Below the pieces are notes generated by a model that made no database searches, was not told the DNA's origin, and worked only from the letters and a program-made list of their open reading frames with translations. A DNA stretch of 64,000 bases. It comes from Candidatus Lachnoclostridium avicola (lineage in GTDB: Bacteria; Bacillota; Clostridia; Lachnospirales; Lachnospiraceae). Positions 8,536 to 56,788 of this stretch are shown piece by piece; positions within the stretch are counted from its first letter, which is position 1, and every line of letters begins with the position of its first letter. The stretch spans positions 79,445 through 143,444 of the forward strand of contig DXFM01000027.1 in assembly GCA_019114465.1 (NCBI GenBank), given 5' to 3'. Position numbers and translations under genes: made by a program.

Positions 8536-10190
8536 ATGGACAATACAGATAAGATCATTCAGGAGCAGAAAGAGAGAATTATTGCATTAAATGAAGAAAT
8601 ACAACGACTTCAGGCACTCTTATCTGGAGCTGGCATTCCATATGAAAAGAAAACGCAAGAAAATGTGGCTGTTCAGTCAGATTTAGCTGTGAAAGATGCA
8701 GAAACCGAACAGGGAAAGCGTATTATTCCAGAGCCGATTACTCAGAAACATGCCCAGTACTTCTACTCCTTTTTCAAAGGTCGAAAAGATGTATACAGTA
8801 GAAGAGCTGGAAAGCCGAATCCCAAAACCGGAAAGACGGGATATTATGCTCAGTGCTGGAATTGTTGGAAACCGGGCATCTGTCCCAAATATGAAAATAA
8901 GAAAATGAAATGTTCGGACTGTCCTGAACAGCGTTATAAAGAACTTACTGGAAATGTGATTATGCAGCATTTACTTGGACTGCGGGAAGATTGCTCTGAT
9001 GTGATCGGATTATACCCGCTGCTGCCTGATGAGACCTGCAATTTCCTTGTATTTGATTTTGATAATCATGATGAAAATACAAGCGGGGAAGATTTTGCCG
9101 ACACAGAGAACTCTGGAGGGAGGAAGTAAATGCATTGCAAGAAATCTGCCATATTTATGGAGTGGATATTCTGACAGAGCGTTCCCGTTCCGGTAAGGGA
9201 GCACATATCTGGATGTTTTTCCAGGAACCTTAATGAAGCATATGCCGCAGTGCGCAGCAGTGATGTGAGAAACAGGCAGATCGTATCTGATGTAGAAGAA
9301 TGCCTGAAACAGGGCAGGACTCCACTTGTGCTGACAAAATTTAAAGATCATGCAGATACATTGCTTGCTATGCTTCAAGATAAGGCGGACCATGTATTTC
9401 TGCTCAAAGGAGGAAGAAGCATAAAAGAAAATGAACAGATCCGCGAGAGAATGAAAAGTGTTCCGGCAAATGAATCGATGATTCTTGTGGCAATCGGACA
9501 GTATATCGGCGAAGGGTTTAACTATCCAAGACTTGATACGATGATGCTGGCAACACCCATCGCATGGCAGGGGAACGTGGAACAGTATTCAGGAAGGATC
9601 CACAGGGATTATGAAGGAAAACAGGATGTGATCATATATGATTATGTGGATACGCATATCCGCGTCTTGAATAAAATGTATTATAAAAGATTGCGGGCGT
9701 ATAAGAAGATTGGTTATGAGATCATTATGAATACGACAGAGAAAAAGCAGGAAACAAATGCTATATTTGACAGTGATTCCTATATGTCTGTATTTGAGAG
9801 AGATTTAGTGGAAGCTAATGCTGAAATCGTGATCTCCAGTCCCGGTGTCGGTGCAAGAAGTATACGCAGGATGCTAAAAGGTCTGGGAGAACGCTATGAC
9901 GAGGGGGGGTAAAGATTACACTTTTGACTTTGCCGGCAGATGGTTACCCGAAAGAAAGGATTGAAAAGACAAAAGAACTGCTTACGGAACTGACGGAGGT
10001 GGGAGTAGCCGTGATGGAAAAGCCGGGAATACATGAGCATTTTGCTGTTATTGACAGGGAGATTGTCTGGTACGGCAGTGTGAATCTGCTGTCCAATGCT
10101 AAGGAAGAGGATAATCTGATGAGGGTGAAGAGTAAGGAAATTGCGCAGGAGCTGATGGAGAGTGGGTTTATGGATAAAGCTTTTGGTTAA
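8536..10190 (+). pseudogene. Broken AEP-TOTE primase / SF2 helicase / PLD-like gene
   Basis: Three frames together encode one protein type. Frame 1 (8536-9129) has a coiled-coil N-terminus and an archaeo-eukaryotic-primase region with cysteine knuckles (CWNCWKPGICPKY, KCSDCPEQRY) and the metal motif FLVFDFDNHDEN. A one-base shift near 9105 continues it as WREEVNALQEICHIYGVDIL...GAHIWMFF up to a stop at 9231. A large deletion removes the Walker A/DEAD half. From about 9229 the frame resumes with helicase motifs V-VI (AIGQYIGEGFNYPRL, QYSGRIHRDYEG) and a PLD-like domain. A second shift at a seven-G run (9902-9911) splits the end, which carries the HEHFAVIDREIVWYGSVN motif. Intact relatives are roughly twice as long. 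The gene is AT-richer than its surroundings and is surely non-functional as a primase-helicase. Confidence 0.8.
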
Positions 10191-10300: not shown

Positions 10301-11251
10301 ATGGAATATATTACAGAGATTTTAGGCATTTCAGTGATTCGCACAGAATGGCGGCAGCAAAGCAGGCTTCCTTTTTTCCTTAATGAAAAATATTATTTTG
10401 AACAGGTAAAACTCGGAAAAACAGTATGTCTGTTTTTACATCCACAGGAAGAATTGGATACTGTGAATTCACTAAAAAAGCATTTAAGACGTATTGGTGA
10501 AATCTGTGAATTACCAATGGTACTGGAAATGCCACGGCTTACCAGTCAGCGGCGAAAGACATTAATTGAGGCACGAATACCATTTGTTATACCTGGAAAA
10601 CAGCTATATCTTCCCTTTCTGGGGACAATGCTCACAGAAAAGTGCGACGCAGAGTTAACGGGAGTGATGTTGGATAAATTACAGCCATCCGCTCAGCAAC
10701 TGCTATTTGCTATGATACTTAGTGGGTGTGAGCCTATGTTACTATCACCTCTTTCCAAAAGGTTTGGGGTTACAGCTATGACGATAACTCGTGCAGCTGA
10801 TCAATTGTGCAGAACCAATTTGATAAAAAAAGTTGGAACCGGCATCGGAGCAAAGAAAATGCTTGTAACAGAATGTACACCCAAAGAACTGTATCAGGAG
10901 ATGCAGCCATATCTGATCCAACCGGTTCGAAAGACTGTATATATTTCTAAGGAGGAGGTGCAGCCGGAAATGTTTTCTGCAGGACTTTCAGCACTTTCCG
11001 ATATGAGTATGCTGAATCCGCCGACTATTCAAACTTGGGGTACACTGAAATTATCTTTAGAAAAAGATTCTTACACAAGCAGTCTATTGGATTCGGACAG
11101 ACAATGTGCCCTGCAGATTTGGAAATATGATCCCCGAAATATCAGCCAGACGGAGATGGTCGATGTCTTATCACTGGCATTGAGTCTGGCAGAGGATGAA
11201 GATGAACGTACCCGGCAATGTCTGGAAGAATTAACAGAAAGGATATGGTAA
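10301..11251 (+). CDS. Winged-helix regulator/antitoxin of an AbiE-like toxin-antitoxin pair
   Basis: A 316-residue protein with no signal or membrane segment. The centre (about residues 125-190) reads as a winged helix (LSPLSKRFGVTAMTITRAADQLCRTNLIKKVGTG), suggesting DNA binding. The N-terminal ~100 residues hold a beta-rich domain of unknown role. It lies four bases upstream of a nucleotidyltransferase gene, the same order as AbiEi (regulator/antitoxin) and AbiEii (toxin). In that family the first protein represses the operon and neutralises the second. The ribosome site is weak (TGGTGATG). Assignment as antitoxin is an inference from gene order and fold; no catalytic motif is visible. Confidence 0.65.
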   Translation: MEYITEILGISVIRTEWRQQSRLPFFLNEKYYFEQVKLGKTVCLFLHPQEELDTVNSLKKHLRRIGEICELPMVLEMPRLTSQRRKTLIEARIPFVIPGKQLYLPFLGTMLTEKCDAELTGVMLDKLQPSAQQLLFAMILSGCEPMLLSPLSKRFGVTAMTITRAADQLCRTNLIKKVGTGIGAKKMLVTECTPKELYQEMQPYLIQPVRKTVYISKEEVQPEMFSAGLSALSDMSMLNPPTIQTWGTLKLSLEKDSYTSSLLDSDRQCALQIWKYDPRNISQTEMVDVLSLALSLAEDEDERTRQCLEELTERIW

Positions 11252-11255
11252 GCAC

Positions 11256-12017
11256 ATGGTAACAGGATTAGAAAGTTTTCGGCGGTGGTTTGCGGAGTAT
11301 ACCGACCAGTATACAATTATTGGCGGAACCGCATGCGACCTTCTGATGAGCGAGGATGGTCTGGAGTTTCGGGCAACACGAGATATTGATATGGTTCTGA
11401 TCGTGGAAAGCCTGACTCCGGAATTTGGACGCAGATTTTGGGAGTATGTAAATGCGGCAGATTATGAACACAGGAATAAAAGCACAGGAGAACCGCAGTT
11501 TTACCGCTTTTCGAAGCCATCCAGCCAGGATTATCCCTATATGATTGAGTTATTCTCTGGGCGCGTCGATGCAATCGAACTTCCAGAAGATGCAGTCTTG
11601 ACACCTCTTCCATTGGATGATGAGATATCCAGTTTATCAGCCATTTTGATGGATTCTGACTATTATCAGTTCCTTCAGGAAGGAAAAGTCGTGCTGAATG
11701 ATATACCGATTCTAGATGCTGGCTATCTGATCCCCTTCAAAGCGAAAGCGTGGCTGGATCTGACAGAACGAAAGGAACAAGGAGAGCATGTTGACAGTAA
11801 AAATATCCGTAAACACAAAAACGATGTATTCCGTTTGAGTATTTTATTGACGCCTGACACCAAGGTGATACCACCATCTTCAATTCAAAGGGATTTAGAG
11901 ACATTCTTTTCAGCTATGGAGAAGGAAACGGTTGATCTGAAATCGTTTGGTATACGAAGCCAGGGGCTGAAAGAGATTATTCAGAAAATGAAATTGATTT
12001 ATGGGCTGATAAAATAA
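11256..12017 (+). CDS. AbiEii-like nucleotidyltransferase (putative toxin)
   Basis: A 253-residue protein. The N-terminus shows the minimal nucleotidyltransferase core IIGGTACDLL followed by RATRDIDMVLIV, i.e. the GG...D-x-D pattern with two metal-binding aspartates about 25 residues later. The rest is alpha-helical and ends in a basic KKMKLIYGLIK-like tail. In AbiE systems the second protein adds nucleotides to target RNA and halts growth, acting in phage abortive infection or plasmid maintenance. It is intact, unlike its neighbours on either side. Translation is probably coupled to the upstream gene (four-base gap). Other NTase families (for example aminoglycoside modifiers) are less likely because of the paired regulator. 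Confidence 0.7.
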   Translation: MVTGLESFRRWFAEYTDQYTIIGGTACDLLMSEDGLEFRATRDIDMVLIVESLTPEFGRRFWEYVNAADYEHRNKSTGEPQFYRFSKPSSQDYPYMIELFSGRVDAIELPEDAVLTPLPLDDEISSLSAILMDSDYYQFLQEGKVVLNDIPILDAGYLIPFKAKAWLDLTERKEQGEHVDSKNIRKHKNDVFRLSILLTPDTKVIPPSSIQRDLETFFSAMEKETVDLKSFGIRSQGLKEIIQKMKLIYGLIK

Positions 12018-52487: not shown

Positions 52488-52498
52488 ACCAGAGGTAT

Positions 52499-52572
52499 CG
52501 AGGCGTGGCTCAGCTTGGTAGAGCGCTGCGTTCGGGACGCAGAGGTCGCAAGTTCAAATCTTGTCGCCTCGA
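52499..52572 (+). tRNA. tRNA-Pro (anticodon CGG), copy 1
   Basis: Acceptor CGAGGCG / CGCCTCG, D-arm GCTC-GAGC, anticodon stem CTGCG/CGCAG with loop TTCGGGA, T-arm with TTCAAAT, discriminator A. CCA is not encoded. Confidence 0.95.
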
Positions 52573-52579
52573 TGATACC

Positions 52580-52651
52580 GGCCTATTGGTCAAGCGGTCA
52601 AGACGCCGCCCTCTCACGGCGGAAACCCGGGTTCGATTCCCGGATAGGTCA
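52580..52651 (+). tRNA. tRNA-Glu (anticodon CTC), copy 1
   Basis: Acceptor GGCCTAT / ATAGGTC (one G-T pair), anticodon stem CCGCC/GGCGG with loop CTCTCAC, T-arm CCGGG TTCGATT CCCGG. CCA is not encoded. Confidence 0.95.
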
Positions 52652-52654
52652 TGA

Positions 52655-52685
52655 AATGCTTTGGAAGGTTCCAAGGCATTTTTTA
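52655..52685 (+). terminator. Terminator after the first tRNA pair
   Basis: AATGCTTTGGAA / TTCCAAGGCATT (one G-T pair) followed by TTTTTT. It lies before tRNA-Thr, so the distal tRNAs depend on read-through or another promoter. Confidence 0.8.
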
Positions 52686-52690
52686 AGCAG

Positions 52691-52763
52691 GCTACTGTGG
52701 CTCAGTTGGTAGAGCAGCTGATTCGTAATCAGCAGGTCAGGGGTTCGAGTCCCCTCAGTAGCT
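52691..52763 (+). tRNA. tRNA-Thr (anticodon CGT)
   Basis: Acceptor GCTACTG / CAGTAGC, anticodon stem GCTGA/TCAGC with loop TTCGTAA, T-arm AGGGG TTCGAGT CCCCT. A TTTTTT run follows directly. CCA is not encoded. Confidence 0.95.
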
Positions 52764-52794
52764 TTTTTGATGGCGGTAAGCTGTCAAAAATTGT

Positions 52795-52868
52795 CGAGGC
52801 GTGGCTCAGCTTGGTAGAGCGCTGCGTTCGGGACGCAGAGGTCGCAAGTTCAAATCTTGTCGCCTCGA
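52795..52868 (+). tRNA. tRNA-Pro (anticodon CGG), copy 2
   Basis: Same sequence as the copy at 52499-52572. Confidence 0.95.
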
Positions 52869-52874
52869 TGATCC

Positions 52875-52946
52875 GGCCTATTGGTCAAGCGGTCAAGACG
52901 CCGCCCTCTCACGGCGGAAACCCGGGTTCGATTCCCGGATAGGTCA
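52875..52946 (+). tRNA. tRNA-Glu (anticodon CTC), copy 2
   Basis: Same sequence as the copy at 52580-52651; it is the last tRNA before the accessory island. Confidence 0.95.
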
Positions 52947-52995: not shown

Positions 52996-53055
52996 CGTCT
53001 GGAAATCAAACTGAAGACTGTGGATCAGATGTTAACAGAAATATCATTCGTAAGC

Positions 53056-54567
53056 TTAATATTGCTGTGCCAGATAAGGCTCGTTGTATAGAATATTATG
53101 AATGTTTTGAGGAATGCCAAAACCAATTTGATTGGTTCTCTCTGCTTCGGGAATATGCAGATTATGAGGATAGGAGGCTGAATGAATTATTAATCCTTTT
53201 ATTAACAGAGGATCAAATTTTTCGTCGAGCTCTTGGAAGAGGCCTGTAGCCAAAGATGCAACTCTGGGAGTCGAAAAGCTTGTGCTCACATTTTCAATAG
53301 TTGTTCCATTGGTGAAAAATGATTTAACCCCAGATATTACCAATTTTCCGTGGTCATCTATTCCTGCATTCCCGCCATAGTGTGTTACTTCTGGTTTTAT
53401 GATAAATTCCGGGCCGGGACCAACTCTTGTAAATGGGGATGGATTATCGATGTCAGCAAAATCAAAGGTTCTTTTTTTATGTGCCATCGAGCCAACTACT
53501 AAGGAGAGAACTGAGTCAGCCCCTTCGTGGATACGGCCTTTTGAAAGATGCATTGTGAAGTTTTTGCAATTACCAGCGGATTTGCAAATTAAAATGTTAT
53601 ATTGTTCTTGCAGTGCATCTAAAGCTACTGCAAAATCAGAAAATTTACTGTTATTGACTTCTCGAGTAATGCTAACAGAAAGGTTCCAAACTTTTATTTT
53701 TTCGTGATTTGCCTTAATTGCTTCCTGGATATTTGCAATTAAATCATCTTCATCCAAGAACTCCTTCGCAGGATCGGGGAAGATAGTCGCATCAAACAGT
53801 TTTAGCCCATTGTGGCCAATCCACTCCTTTTCCTCTAAAATATCTCCATAAAGTGCTGCTCCTGCTACAAAAGTGCCATGTGTTGACGAAATAACATTTT
53901 CCGGATAGACAGTCCATCGTTTGCCATCTATCCAAGGCTGAAGCTGGGGAATGCTGGCAATGCCATTATCAAGAATCCCTAAAGTCTCATACCGTCGTCC
54001 GTTTACAGGGTATATCGGAGAAACATCACTATTGTGATCTATAAAATCCAAAGATAATGTATACTGCGGCATGGGCTCAATAGAAAAAATCATCTCAAAA
54101 GAGGGGTCATTTGTTAGAGTATCAATTGTTATCTTTGGTAACTGCTTAATTTTATAGACAGGGACTTGACTTGTATAGAGAGTTTTTTGATAGGAAATAC
54201 CATTTTTAGTTAGACATTTTTCAAACAGTCTTTGCATTGCAATATTTGTTTCATAATTCTGAAAGTCAATTAACTTGATTTTATATGCCTTATCTTCTTT
54301 GTCCCATTGGACGATGGGGTCAAATGGTTTGAATGTTGCATCTTCACACATTTTTGCAACAAAAACGAATGGAATAGGAGATGATACCCGCTGCTCATAT
54401 ATGGAAGAAAATGAATGAAATGCATCCAACAATTGGGCAGAGCGGTCGATCAAGTCCTGACCAGTAAGTAACCACCTGGGAGGTTCCCGGTTGCGATTTC
54501 CCTCAACACGGAGTTCATCAATTTCCCGCGGTGCAAAGAATTTGATCGGTAGTCTTTCGTTATCCAT
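53056..54567 (-). CDS. ietS: Subtilisin-like (S8) serine protease, IetS-like
   Basis: A 503-residue cytoplasmic protein without signal peptide. The first ~185 residues are an unknown domain; the S8 domain follows with catalytic Asp200 (LGILDNGI), His230 (STHGTFVAG), oxyanion Asn333 (SAGNCKN) and Ser430 (TSFSTPRVA). It lies three bases behind an AAA ATPase gene, the arrangement of IetAS, a two-gene system first seen as plasmid interference and later reported as anti-phage. The region is clearly AT-richer than its neighbours, pointing to acquisition. Gene symbol is by architecture, not by alignment. How the protease is triggered is not known from sequence. Confidence 0.8.
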   Translation of the reverse strand: MDNERLPIKFFAPREIDELRVEGNRNREPPRWLLTGQDLIDRSAQLLDAFHSFSSIYEQRVSSPIPFVFVAKMCEDATFKPFDPIVQWDKEDKAYKIKLIDFQNYETNIAMQRLFEKCLTKNGISYQKTLYTSQVPVYKIKQLPKITIDTLTNDPSFEMIFSIEPMPQYTLSLDFIDHNSDVSPIYPVNGRRYETLGILDNGIASIPQLQPWIDGKRWTVYPENVISSTHGTFVAGAALYGDILEEKEWIGHNGLKLFDATIFPDPAKEFLDEDDLIANIQEAIKANHEKIKVWNLSVSITREVNNSKFSDFAVALDALQEQYNILICKSAGNCKNFTMHLSKGRIHEGADSVLSLVVGSMAHKKRTFDFADIDNPSPFTRVGPGPEFIIKPEVTHYGGNAGIDDHGKLVISGVKSFFTNGTTIENVSTSFSTPRVASLATGLFQELDEKFDPLLIKGLIIHSASYPHNLHIPEAERTNQIGFGIPQNIHNILYNEPYLAQQY

Positions 54568-54570
54568 ATC

Positions 54571-55677
54571 TTATAACTCCTTTCGCTCTAATGATTTAGA
54601 AATGGATTGAATTTTGCGAAGTGGAATCCCAAGGCTTTCGTTTGCTTCTTTATGGGTAACCCCATGATTAAGTAAAAATGCAATAAAATCGTTTTCACAT
54701 TCTACGGCATGTTTCTCATAGAGATAGATTGATTTTAAAACGTCGCAGTTGGTTAAAATTTCGCGGCCAGACAGAACAACAGTTTTCAATGCATTGAGGA
54801 TAATAGTTCTTATATCAGAATAGCTGAGCCCAACAAATGCACTAATGATTCGTTCAAGTTTTTTTTCGCTAGAAATAAAATCGGTAGATTTATTAGCAAG
54901 AAGGATATTCAAATAGTGTGCTATTTCATCTTTTTGAGGCTTTTCCAAAGCTACTATGGTTGAAAATCTCCTCCAAATAGCAGGATCTAGTAGTTCGTGG
55001 TGGTTAGTTGCGGCAATTAAAATGCTGTCGCTATTGAAACCGTCAATATTTTGAAGCAGGCTATTTACCACTCGTTTAAGTTCCCCAAGTTCATTTTTGT
55101 CATCACGCAGTTTTGCAATTACGTCAAACTCATCTAAGAACAAAATACATTCTCTTTTAGATGCATAATCAAAGATTTTTCTTATATTTTTAGCGGTGCT
55201 CCCCAACAGAGATGAAATTAAACCATCTAATCGTGCGGTTACCAGGGGAAGTCCCGTAATACTGGAAATATACTGCGCAACGGTTGTTTTTCCGCATCCC
55301 GGAGGACCGTAAAGAAGTAAGGTGTTTGAAATGTCTAATCCAGATTGAAGCAGTAAATCTCTATGCGTATAGCTGTCAATAAAGTTATGGATGGAGGCAC
55401 GGGAATACTGATCCAACACAACAAAATCGGGACTAACTTGCGGCATTGTAATCTCGACAATATCCATCCTGCTTTCGGAATCAACAGGTTTTGTCGAGAA
55501 GCTATCTAAGGAAGTCAAAGTGCCTCTTCTTTTGTTAAGTGTTGTGCGTATTTTTTTTGCTAGTGAAATTTCTCCCTGCTGCTCTAAATTATTAGCCAAG
55601 ACTTCGGCATAGTTAATTACTTTTTCCTTATCATTAACTAGGCCGCCCTCAATAATCTTTACAATTTCCGTATACAT
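54571..55677 (-). CDS. ietA: AAA ATPase, IetA-like
   Basis: A 368-residue protein. A helical N-terminus (~1-85) precedes an AAA+ core: Walker A GPPGCGKTT (about 127-135), Walker B CILFLDEFD, sensor 1 AATNHHELL and the arginine-finger region DPAIWRRF. A C-terminal lid (~255-330) is followed by an HTH-like segment (THKEANESLGIPLRKIQSISKSL). ATG 55677 with GAGGTGG is preferred over GTG 55686. It precedes the S8 protease in one operon. AAA proteins of this kind probably sense or unfold a target and control the partner protease; this is inferred from the family. Confidence 0.8.
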   Translation of the reverse strand: MYTEIVKIIEGGLVNDKEKVINYAEVLANNLEQQGEISLAKKIRTTLNKRRGTLTSLDSFSTKPVDSESRMDIVEITMPQVSPDFVVLDQYSRASIHNFIDSYTHRDLLLQSGLDISNTLLLYGPPGCGKTTVAQYISSITGLPLVTARLDGLISSLLGSTAKNIRKIFDYASKRECILFLDEFDVIAKLRDDKNELGELKRVVNSLLQNIDGFNSDSILIAATNHHELLDPAIWRRFSTIVALEKPQKDEIAHYLNILLANKSTDFISSEKKLERIISAFVGLSYSDIRTIILNALKTVVLSGREILTNCDVLKSIYLYEKHAVECENDFIAFLLNHGVTHKEANESLGIPLRKIQSISKSLERKEL

Positions 55678-55704
55678 GATGACCACCTCGCGTATTTGTG
55701 GTAA

Positions 55705-55733
55705 AGAATATCACATTGTGTTATTAAAGTCAA
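55705..55733 (-). promoter_or_regulatory. Promoter of the ATPase/protease pair
   Basis: On the minus strand TTGACT (55728-55733), 17-base spacer, TATTCT (55705-55710), 28 bases before the ATG. The remaining gap to the recombinase gene is AT-rich and holds no other clear signal. Confidence 0.6.
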
Positions 55734-55923
55734 TAATTTTGTTTTCAAAATTAAAAATATGTTATTATAACTCAATATTTTGTTGTTGATTTGCTAAAAC
55801 CAAAATGAAGTCAAACTTTGAATTGCTAAAATTTCAGAAAATTCCCCTATATGACAGATATTTCATTTATGATGGACTCATACAAAAGAGAAATACTATC
55901 AGTGAAAAAGGAGGCAGTCATCA

Positions 55924-56526
55924 ATGAAATCAACGATGTACGGATATGTGAGAGTATCTTCCAAGGATCAGTGCGAGGATCGGCAGATTCTGGCACTGCG
56001 GGAATTTCAGGTCCCGGAGAGGAATATTTTCATGGACAAACTGAGCGGAAAGGACTTTAACCGCCCCCAATATCGGAGAATGATCCGGAGGATAAGAGAG
56101 GGGGACGTGCTGGTGATCAAGTCCATAGACCGGCTGGGTCGAAATTACGAGGAGATTCTGGAGCAGTGGCGGATGATCACCAAGGAGAAGAAAGCGGATG
56201 TGGTGGTCCTGGATATGCCATTGCTGGACACGAGAAAGTCCGGAAAAAACCTGATGGGAGTGTTTGTGGCAGATCTGGTGCTTCAGATCCTGTCCTATGT
56301 GGCCCAGACGGAGCGGGAGAACATCCGGCAGAGACAGAAAGAGGGCATCGCCGCGGCCAGACAGAGAGGCGTGAAATTCGGACGGCCGAGGAAACGGATT
56401 CCGGAAGAATTTGCGCCTTTAAAGGACGCCTGGATGGGAAAACAGCTCTCCTCCAGAGAGGCTGCCAGGCAGCTGGGAGTGTCCCAGGATACCTTCTTGA
56501 GATGGGCAAAAGAACCAATTTCTTAA
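55924..56526 (+). CDS. Serine recombinase (resolvase/invertase family)
   Basis: A 200-residue protein, the usual size of Hin/Gin/Pin-type invertases. The N-terminal catalytic domain starts MKSTMYGYVRVSSKDQCEDRQ (nucleophile Ser12 or 13), with KSIDRLGRNYEEI; helix E connects to a C-terminal HTH (SREAARQLGVSQDTFLRWAKE). It should cut and rejoin DNA at short dyad sites. AAAGGAGGCAG precedes the ATG. Only 26 bases after its stop begins a segment flanked by inverted repeats and containing a promoter, directly in front of an exopolysaccharide operon, which suggests that it is a DNA invertase for phase variation. A stand-alone resolvase is the alternative. Confidence 0.9.
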   Translation: MKSTMYGYVRVSSKDQCEDRQILALREFQVPERNIFMDKLSGKDFNRPQYRRMIRRIREGDVLVIKSIDRLGRNYEEILEQWRMITKEKKADVVVLDMPLLDTRKSGKNLMGVFVADLVLQILSYVAQTERENIRQRQKEGIAAARQRGVKFGRPRKRIPEEFAPLKDAWMGKQLSSREAARQLGVSQDTFLRWAKEPIS

Positions 56527-56552: not shown

Positions 56553-56740
56553 AAACGTAGACTTTTTCCCGCAAAAGAGATATAATACAGTGCAAATTGA
56601 AGGGGACTTTAAAGCAGAATAAATATTAGACAACTTACATAACAACTCATCATTATATTACTAATCGTAACACAAATCCCAATATTGTCTAACAACTACA
56701 ACTGAACGGAAAAGTCTACCTTTGAAAGGAAAAGTCTACC
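56553..56740. repeat. Candidate invertible segment bounded by inverted repeats
   Basis: Left site AAACGTAGACTTTTTCC (56553-56569) is the inverse of the right site GGAAAAGTCTACCTTT (56708-56723), apart from one base indel and one mismatch. A third copy GGAAAAGTCTACC follows at 56728-56740, in direct repeat with the second. An inner pair TTAGACAA / TTGTCTAA lies at 56626-56633 and 56685-56692. The segment contains the -10 box of a promoter that reads toward the polysaccharide genes and lies right behind an invertase-like gene. Confidence 0.55.
56558..56586 (+). promoter_or_regulatory. Promoter of the exopolysaccharide operon, inside the inverted-repeat segment
   Basis: TAGACT (56558-56563, within the left repeat), 17-base spacer, perfect TATAAT (56581-56586), followed by a ~195-base leader. 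Inversion would point it away from the operon. Confidence 0.6.
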
Positions 56741-56788
56741 TTATCATTCACTGCCAAAAACGAGATTACAGACGGAGCTGAGGACGGT

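Follow-up and report, generated by a model that had tools for sequence, protein, structure and literature searches.

IetAS is listed by PADLOC and NCBIfam as an anti-phage system. Defence is only half of its known biology; the experimentally characterised relatives considered here are toxin-antitoxin modules (PMC5006074, PMC8562856, PMC6755753). In sgiAT of SGI1 the protease acts as the toxin and the ATPase as its antitoxin (PMC5006074), and the T133/A132 pair of mycoplasma is divided in the same way (PMC8562856). Both papers cite the work on IetAS of pTiC58. In mycoplasma, deletion of the ATPase antitoxin alone is lethal, while the toxin or both genes together can be deleted (PMC8562856, PMC6755753).

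The window, which is the whole stretch of 64,000 nucleotides that was analysed, carries a pair of this kind. The gene ietA (54571..55686, minus strand) encodes a 371-aa AAA ATPase (Pfam PF00004, E=4e-32). It is followed on the same strand by ietS (53056..54567), which encodes a 503-aa S8 protease (PF00082, E=2e-25). Only 3 bp separate the stop codon of ietA from the ATG of ietS. The GC content of ietAS is 0.36-0.40, and 0.379 over positions 53011-55766, compared with ~0.54-0.55 in the surroundings. On the left lies a host tRNA array (52498..52946, plus strand) with the order Pro-Glu-Thr-Pro-Glu, in which ARAGORN finds the Pro-Glu pair twice; the array is also present in congeners. On the right lies a serine recombinase gene of the resolvase/invertase type (55924..56526, plus strand; PF00239, 1e-31). 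A sequence-only reading had described an ATPase and protease operon in AT-rich DNA between a duplicated tRNA array and a recombinase gene, and each of these points was confirmed.

The same reading had assigned the pair to IetAS, and the PADLOC models agree, with scores far above those of all other models. IetA matches PDLC02196 over its full length (3-370/374, E=2.1e-132, 440 bits). IetS matches PDLC02201 with E=1.3e-180 and 600 bits, though the main stretch covers only 142-558 of a profile that is 781 long. The pair misses the NCBIfam equivalog cut-offs (IteA 361/510 bits, IteS 252/900 bits), and its full-length relatives likewise fall below them (352-366), so that it represents a divergent IetAS subfamily. 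By descent the window pair belongs to the IetAS family, yet as a system it is incomplete.

The ATPase gene is intact. Its start codon is GTG, and an in-frame ATG three codons inward corresponds to the start of most relatives. IetA is 91% identical in amino acid sequence to IetA of Anaerotruncus colihominis, the nearest relative found. In a sequence search of solved structures IetA matched only general AAA ATPases of the p97/Cdc48 type.

The protease gene is shortened. IetS of A. colihominis (locus L002) has 781 aa and spans 1-778/781 of the PADLOC profile, and full-length relatives, of ~740-850 aa, span 1-780. Such a protein, with an N-terminal region, a subtilase core and a C-terminal domain, is a regular feature of the family that is absent from the window copy. 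By blastn the window and L002 are co-linear and ~84% identical in DNA sequence, except for two gaps in the window. The first deletion removed 180 bp (L002 6234-6413) in frame, so that 60 residues are lost from the N-terminal region after about residue 78. At its junction (54335..54337, minus strand) the blastn segments overlap by 3 nt (AAC). The second deletion removed 620 bp (L002 7678-8297) out of frame and took away the C-terminal domain (207 residues). Here (53073..53074, minus strand) the segments abut, with an overlap of <=1 nt. We infer that junction homologies of 3 and <=1 nt are typical of illegitimate deletion. Together the two deletions removed more than a third of the length of ietS. 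Past ..LYNEPY at the second junction the reading frame continues as LAQQY*. The native end of the protein, WHSNIKLTNDISVNI*, persists just downstream in another frame (53025..53075, minus strand; frame 2 translation of 53080..53011), and its counterpart in L002 is FWHSNIKLTNDVTVNV*. The first ~185 residues had been taken for an unassigned, possibly regulatory domain; they are instead the normal IetS N-terminal region minus 60 residues at ~78. The deleted pieces match nothing elsewhere in the same genome assembly, which is 86% complete, and on this basis their relocation within the genome was rejected.

Among 391 genomes of the class, open IetS-like frames with good matches encode 737-846 aa; only the window, the copy in G246, which carries nine stops and is clearly broken, and remote S8 proteases depart from this range. 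In an alignment of six relatives, invariant positions make up 21% of the deleted C-terminal part, 25% of the subtilase core and 5-12% of the N-terminal regions. The lost C-terminal domain is conserved to about the same degree as the protease core. The catalytic residues D200, H230 and S430 and the oxyanion residue N333 are present, and G428 is replaced by serine. The strict subtilase signature GTSxSxP therefore reads STSFSTP in the window; GTS is found in all relatives where the motif was located. The sequence-only reading had called the catalytic residues complete; Asp, His and Ser are kept, but "complete" is the wrong word for a gene with deletions of 180 and 620 bp and an out-of-frame end. 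AlphaFold2 models of the window IetS and the full-length L002 IetS, built from alignments of 4 sequences each, reached pLDDT values of 32-36 and were uninformative. A sequence search of solved structures with full-length IetS returned no match.

The window pair is foreign and was acquired horizontally from a mobile element. TypA of the host is only 62% identical to TypA of A. colihominis at the protein level while IetA is 91% and IetS 89% identical, so ietAS has moved horizontally. The pair, including IetS, is absent from all 8 other genomes of the genus. In congener G003 the site is empty, with the recombinase gene within ~120 bp of the tRNA array and no ietAS between them. The profiles thus match and the pair is not a core gene pair at this site, so that the IetAS assignment held on both counts. 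The acquired segment extends over approximately 52996..55923, and DNA homology to L002 covers 53011-55766 of it. The recombinase, which lies outside the insert, was considered as its mobiliser or as part of it; this was rejected because in G003 the gene is a native neighbour of the tRNA array. The insert has no convincing flanking direct repeats. In another congener (G008; L026 2268-3311) the same tRNA array has a gene for a tyrosine integrase beside it, which points to a hotspot for insertion, visited by more than one element.

Intact copies are found in several mobile contexts. The A. colihominis pair adjoins genes for NikA/MobC, a MobA/VirD2-type relaxase, ArdA and a topoisomerase, an ICE-like region. 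Relatives are also carried on conjugative Enterococcus faecium plasmids. On one of these, pA15023_P1 (L070 7125-12387), genes for TIR-domain proteins lie on both sides of ietAS. A contig from a viral collection (IMGVR_UViG_2889554616_000002; L071 4837-8355) carries an intact ietAS between an ArpU-like gene and terminase/portal genes and is probably a case of prophage cargo. ietAS moves between gut bacteria that are only distantly related, and intact copies lie in an ICE-like region, in a prophage-like contig and on enterococcal plasmids.

The damage to ietS is recent. Compared with L002, dN/dS is 0.04 for IetA and 0.06 for the shared part of IetS. With the prophage-borne L071 as outgroup, IetS has 14 changes on the window lineage and 12 on the Anaerotruncus lineage; the corresponding numbers for IetA are 7 and 9. 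More distant outgroups give 24 and 14 changes for IetS, a difference that is not significant. The dN/dS is low and the window lineage shows no excess of change, so the ietS deletions are recent. A long-standing pseudogene was rejected on the same lack of excess (14 vs 12).

Other parts of the window also hold AT-rich genes. At 8536-9912 a truncated AEP-TOTE primase domain (PF22548, 3-108/230, E=4e-29) is followed by a separate Helicase_C fragment. The two are what is left of a TOTE conflict system and form, besides ietAS, a second conflict/defence locus in decay. An AT-rich two-gene unit at 10301-12017 has no confident Pfam, PADLOC or NCBIfam match. One of its genes may encode a winged-helix protein (weak MarR match, below cut-off), the other looks nucleotidyltransferase-like by eye (GGTACDLL..RATRDIDMVL), and the two are perhaps an AbiE-like pair. 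Between the serine recombinase and polysaccharide genes, at 56553-56742, lies an imperfect inverted repeat with arms of 14-22 nt that are ~145 nt apart and the core AAGTCTAC. It could act as an invertible promoter that the adjacent Mpi-like recombinase flips.

With high confidence, we regard the locus as a horizontally acquired IetAS in which the protease gene was recently inactivated by two deletions and the IetA ATPase was left intact. In the intact module the ATPase would keep the protease harmless, as is established for relatives and presumed for the window pair. When the balance is upset by plasmid loss or, presumably, infection, the protease would kill or arrest the cell. The two deletions would leave a non-functional protease fragment beside intact IetA, and the window copy very probably lacks effector function. 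If the effector is disabled, neither toxicity nor phage defence is to be expected from the locus. Intact IetA may then simply be carried along, or it could neutralise a homologous module that enters the cell. Family membership, horizontal origin, the two deletions, the frameshift and the conservation of the lost parts are findings; for the window copy, both the loss of protease function and the toxin and antitoxin roles are what we infer from the sequence of one genome of the species. The proposal of a working defence pair with a regulatory N-terminal domain is not borne out: the window protease is what two deletions and a frameshift have left of a 781-aa protein.

The 503-aa protease may nevertheless retain residual activity, since its frame is open, it was under purifying selection in the past, the first deletion preserves the frame, and Asp, His, Asn and Ser are all present. 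A compact IetAS, in which a working subtilase core acts with IetA in defence or addiction, would draw on these same features and on the 600-bit PADLOC score and low dN/dS of the shared part. We consider it unlikely: no intact relative of such length was found in the 391 genomes of the class; the frame is lost at the second deletion, so that the true C-terminus goes untranslated; the part lost there is about as conserved as the core; and G428S alters the GTS motif. Still less probable is a short IetS that is a real, selected form in this species, for example a decoy or a protease released from regulation by its C-terminal domain, and that makes up a changed module together with IetA. The deletions might also have arisen in the assembly of a draft, probably metagenomic, genome, and the organism would then have the intact IetAS defence pair proposed from the sequence alone. 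The assembly is in 54 contigs and incomplete, and a single genome of the species is available for comparison. Yet there are two separate deletions, G428S is independent of both, and the missing pieces are absent from the rest of the assembly. Furthermore, junction homology of only 1-3 nt is far below assembler word length, which makes it probable that reads span the junctions. An artefact is therefore very improbable.

In mycoplasma, loss of the ATPase alone is lethal and loss of the toxin or of both is tolerated, so such a module is expected to decay by losing its toxin while the antitoxin stays intact. Independently broken copies of ietS beside an open ietA occur in E. faecium pVB6171_p1, where ietS is interrupted by IS256, in G246 (nine stops) and in L003, whose single stop is possibly a draft-sequence error. 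Breakage of the toxin before the antitoxin stands at four cases, which are too few for a statistical conclusion given the greater length of ietS. Orphan antitoxins are a familiar phenomenon in other toxin-antitoxin families. Selection might maintain IetA as an anti-addiction antitoxin that guards the cell against IetS arriving on plasmids, ICEs or prophages. Its gene is intact with a low dN/dS, and intact ietAS pairs occur on plasmids, in an ICE-like region and in a contig with terminase and portal genes. However, the deletions look too recent to tell selection on IetA alone from inheritance, and we hold this role to be possible but doubtful.

Like IetAS of pTiC58 (IteA/IteS in NCBIfam, ietAS in PADLOC), the window locus has an AAA ATPase gene upstream of an S8 protease gene. 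It differs in that its protease covers only the middle of the profile and both scores are below the equivalog cut-offs. The pair of A. colihominis JM4-15 (L002 4882-8346) has the same gene order and is 91% (IetA) and 89% (IetS, shared part) identical; DNA homology to the window begins ~80 bp before ietA and stops 14 bp past the ietS stop. It differs in its 781-aa IetS and in lying near mobile-element genes, whereas the window pair stands alone at a tRNA array. The E. faecium plasmids pA15023_P1, with ietAS intact, and pVB6171_p1, with ietS split by IS256, carry pairs of the same subfamily. Their IetS is ~31% identical to that of the window, and pVB6171_p1 was broken by an insertion sequence whereas the window copy was broken by deletion. 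sgiAT of Salmonella genomic island 1 (PMC5006074) and T133/A132 of Mycoplasma mycoides (PMC8562856) resemble the window locus: in each, a single operon, located on mobile or acquired DNA, encodes an AAA-ATPase antitoxin and a subtilisin-like protease toxin. Both toxins have their full length (757 aa for that of Mycoplasma) and demonstrated toxicity, whereas the 503-aa window protease is known from sequence. The strong IetAS profile match (600 + 440 bits) of a locus with a mutilated effector lacking its native C-terminus calls for caution in defence-system catalogues. The window locus adds a case of toxin-first decay in a module known both as a phage defence and as a toxin-antitoxin system. It is a known kind of system in ordinary decay.
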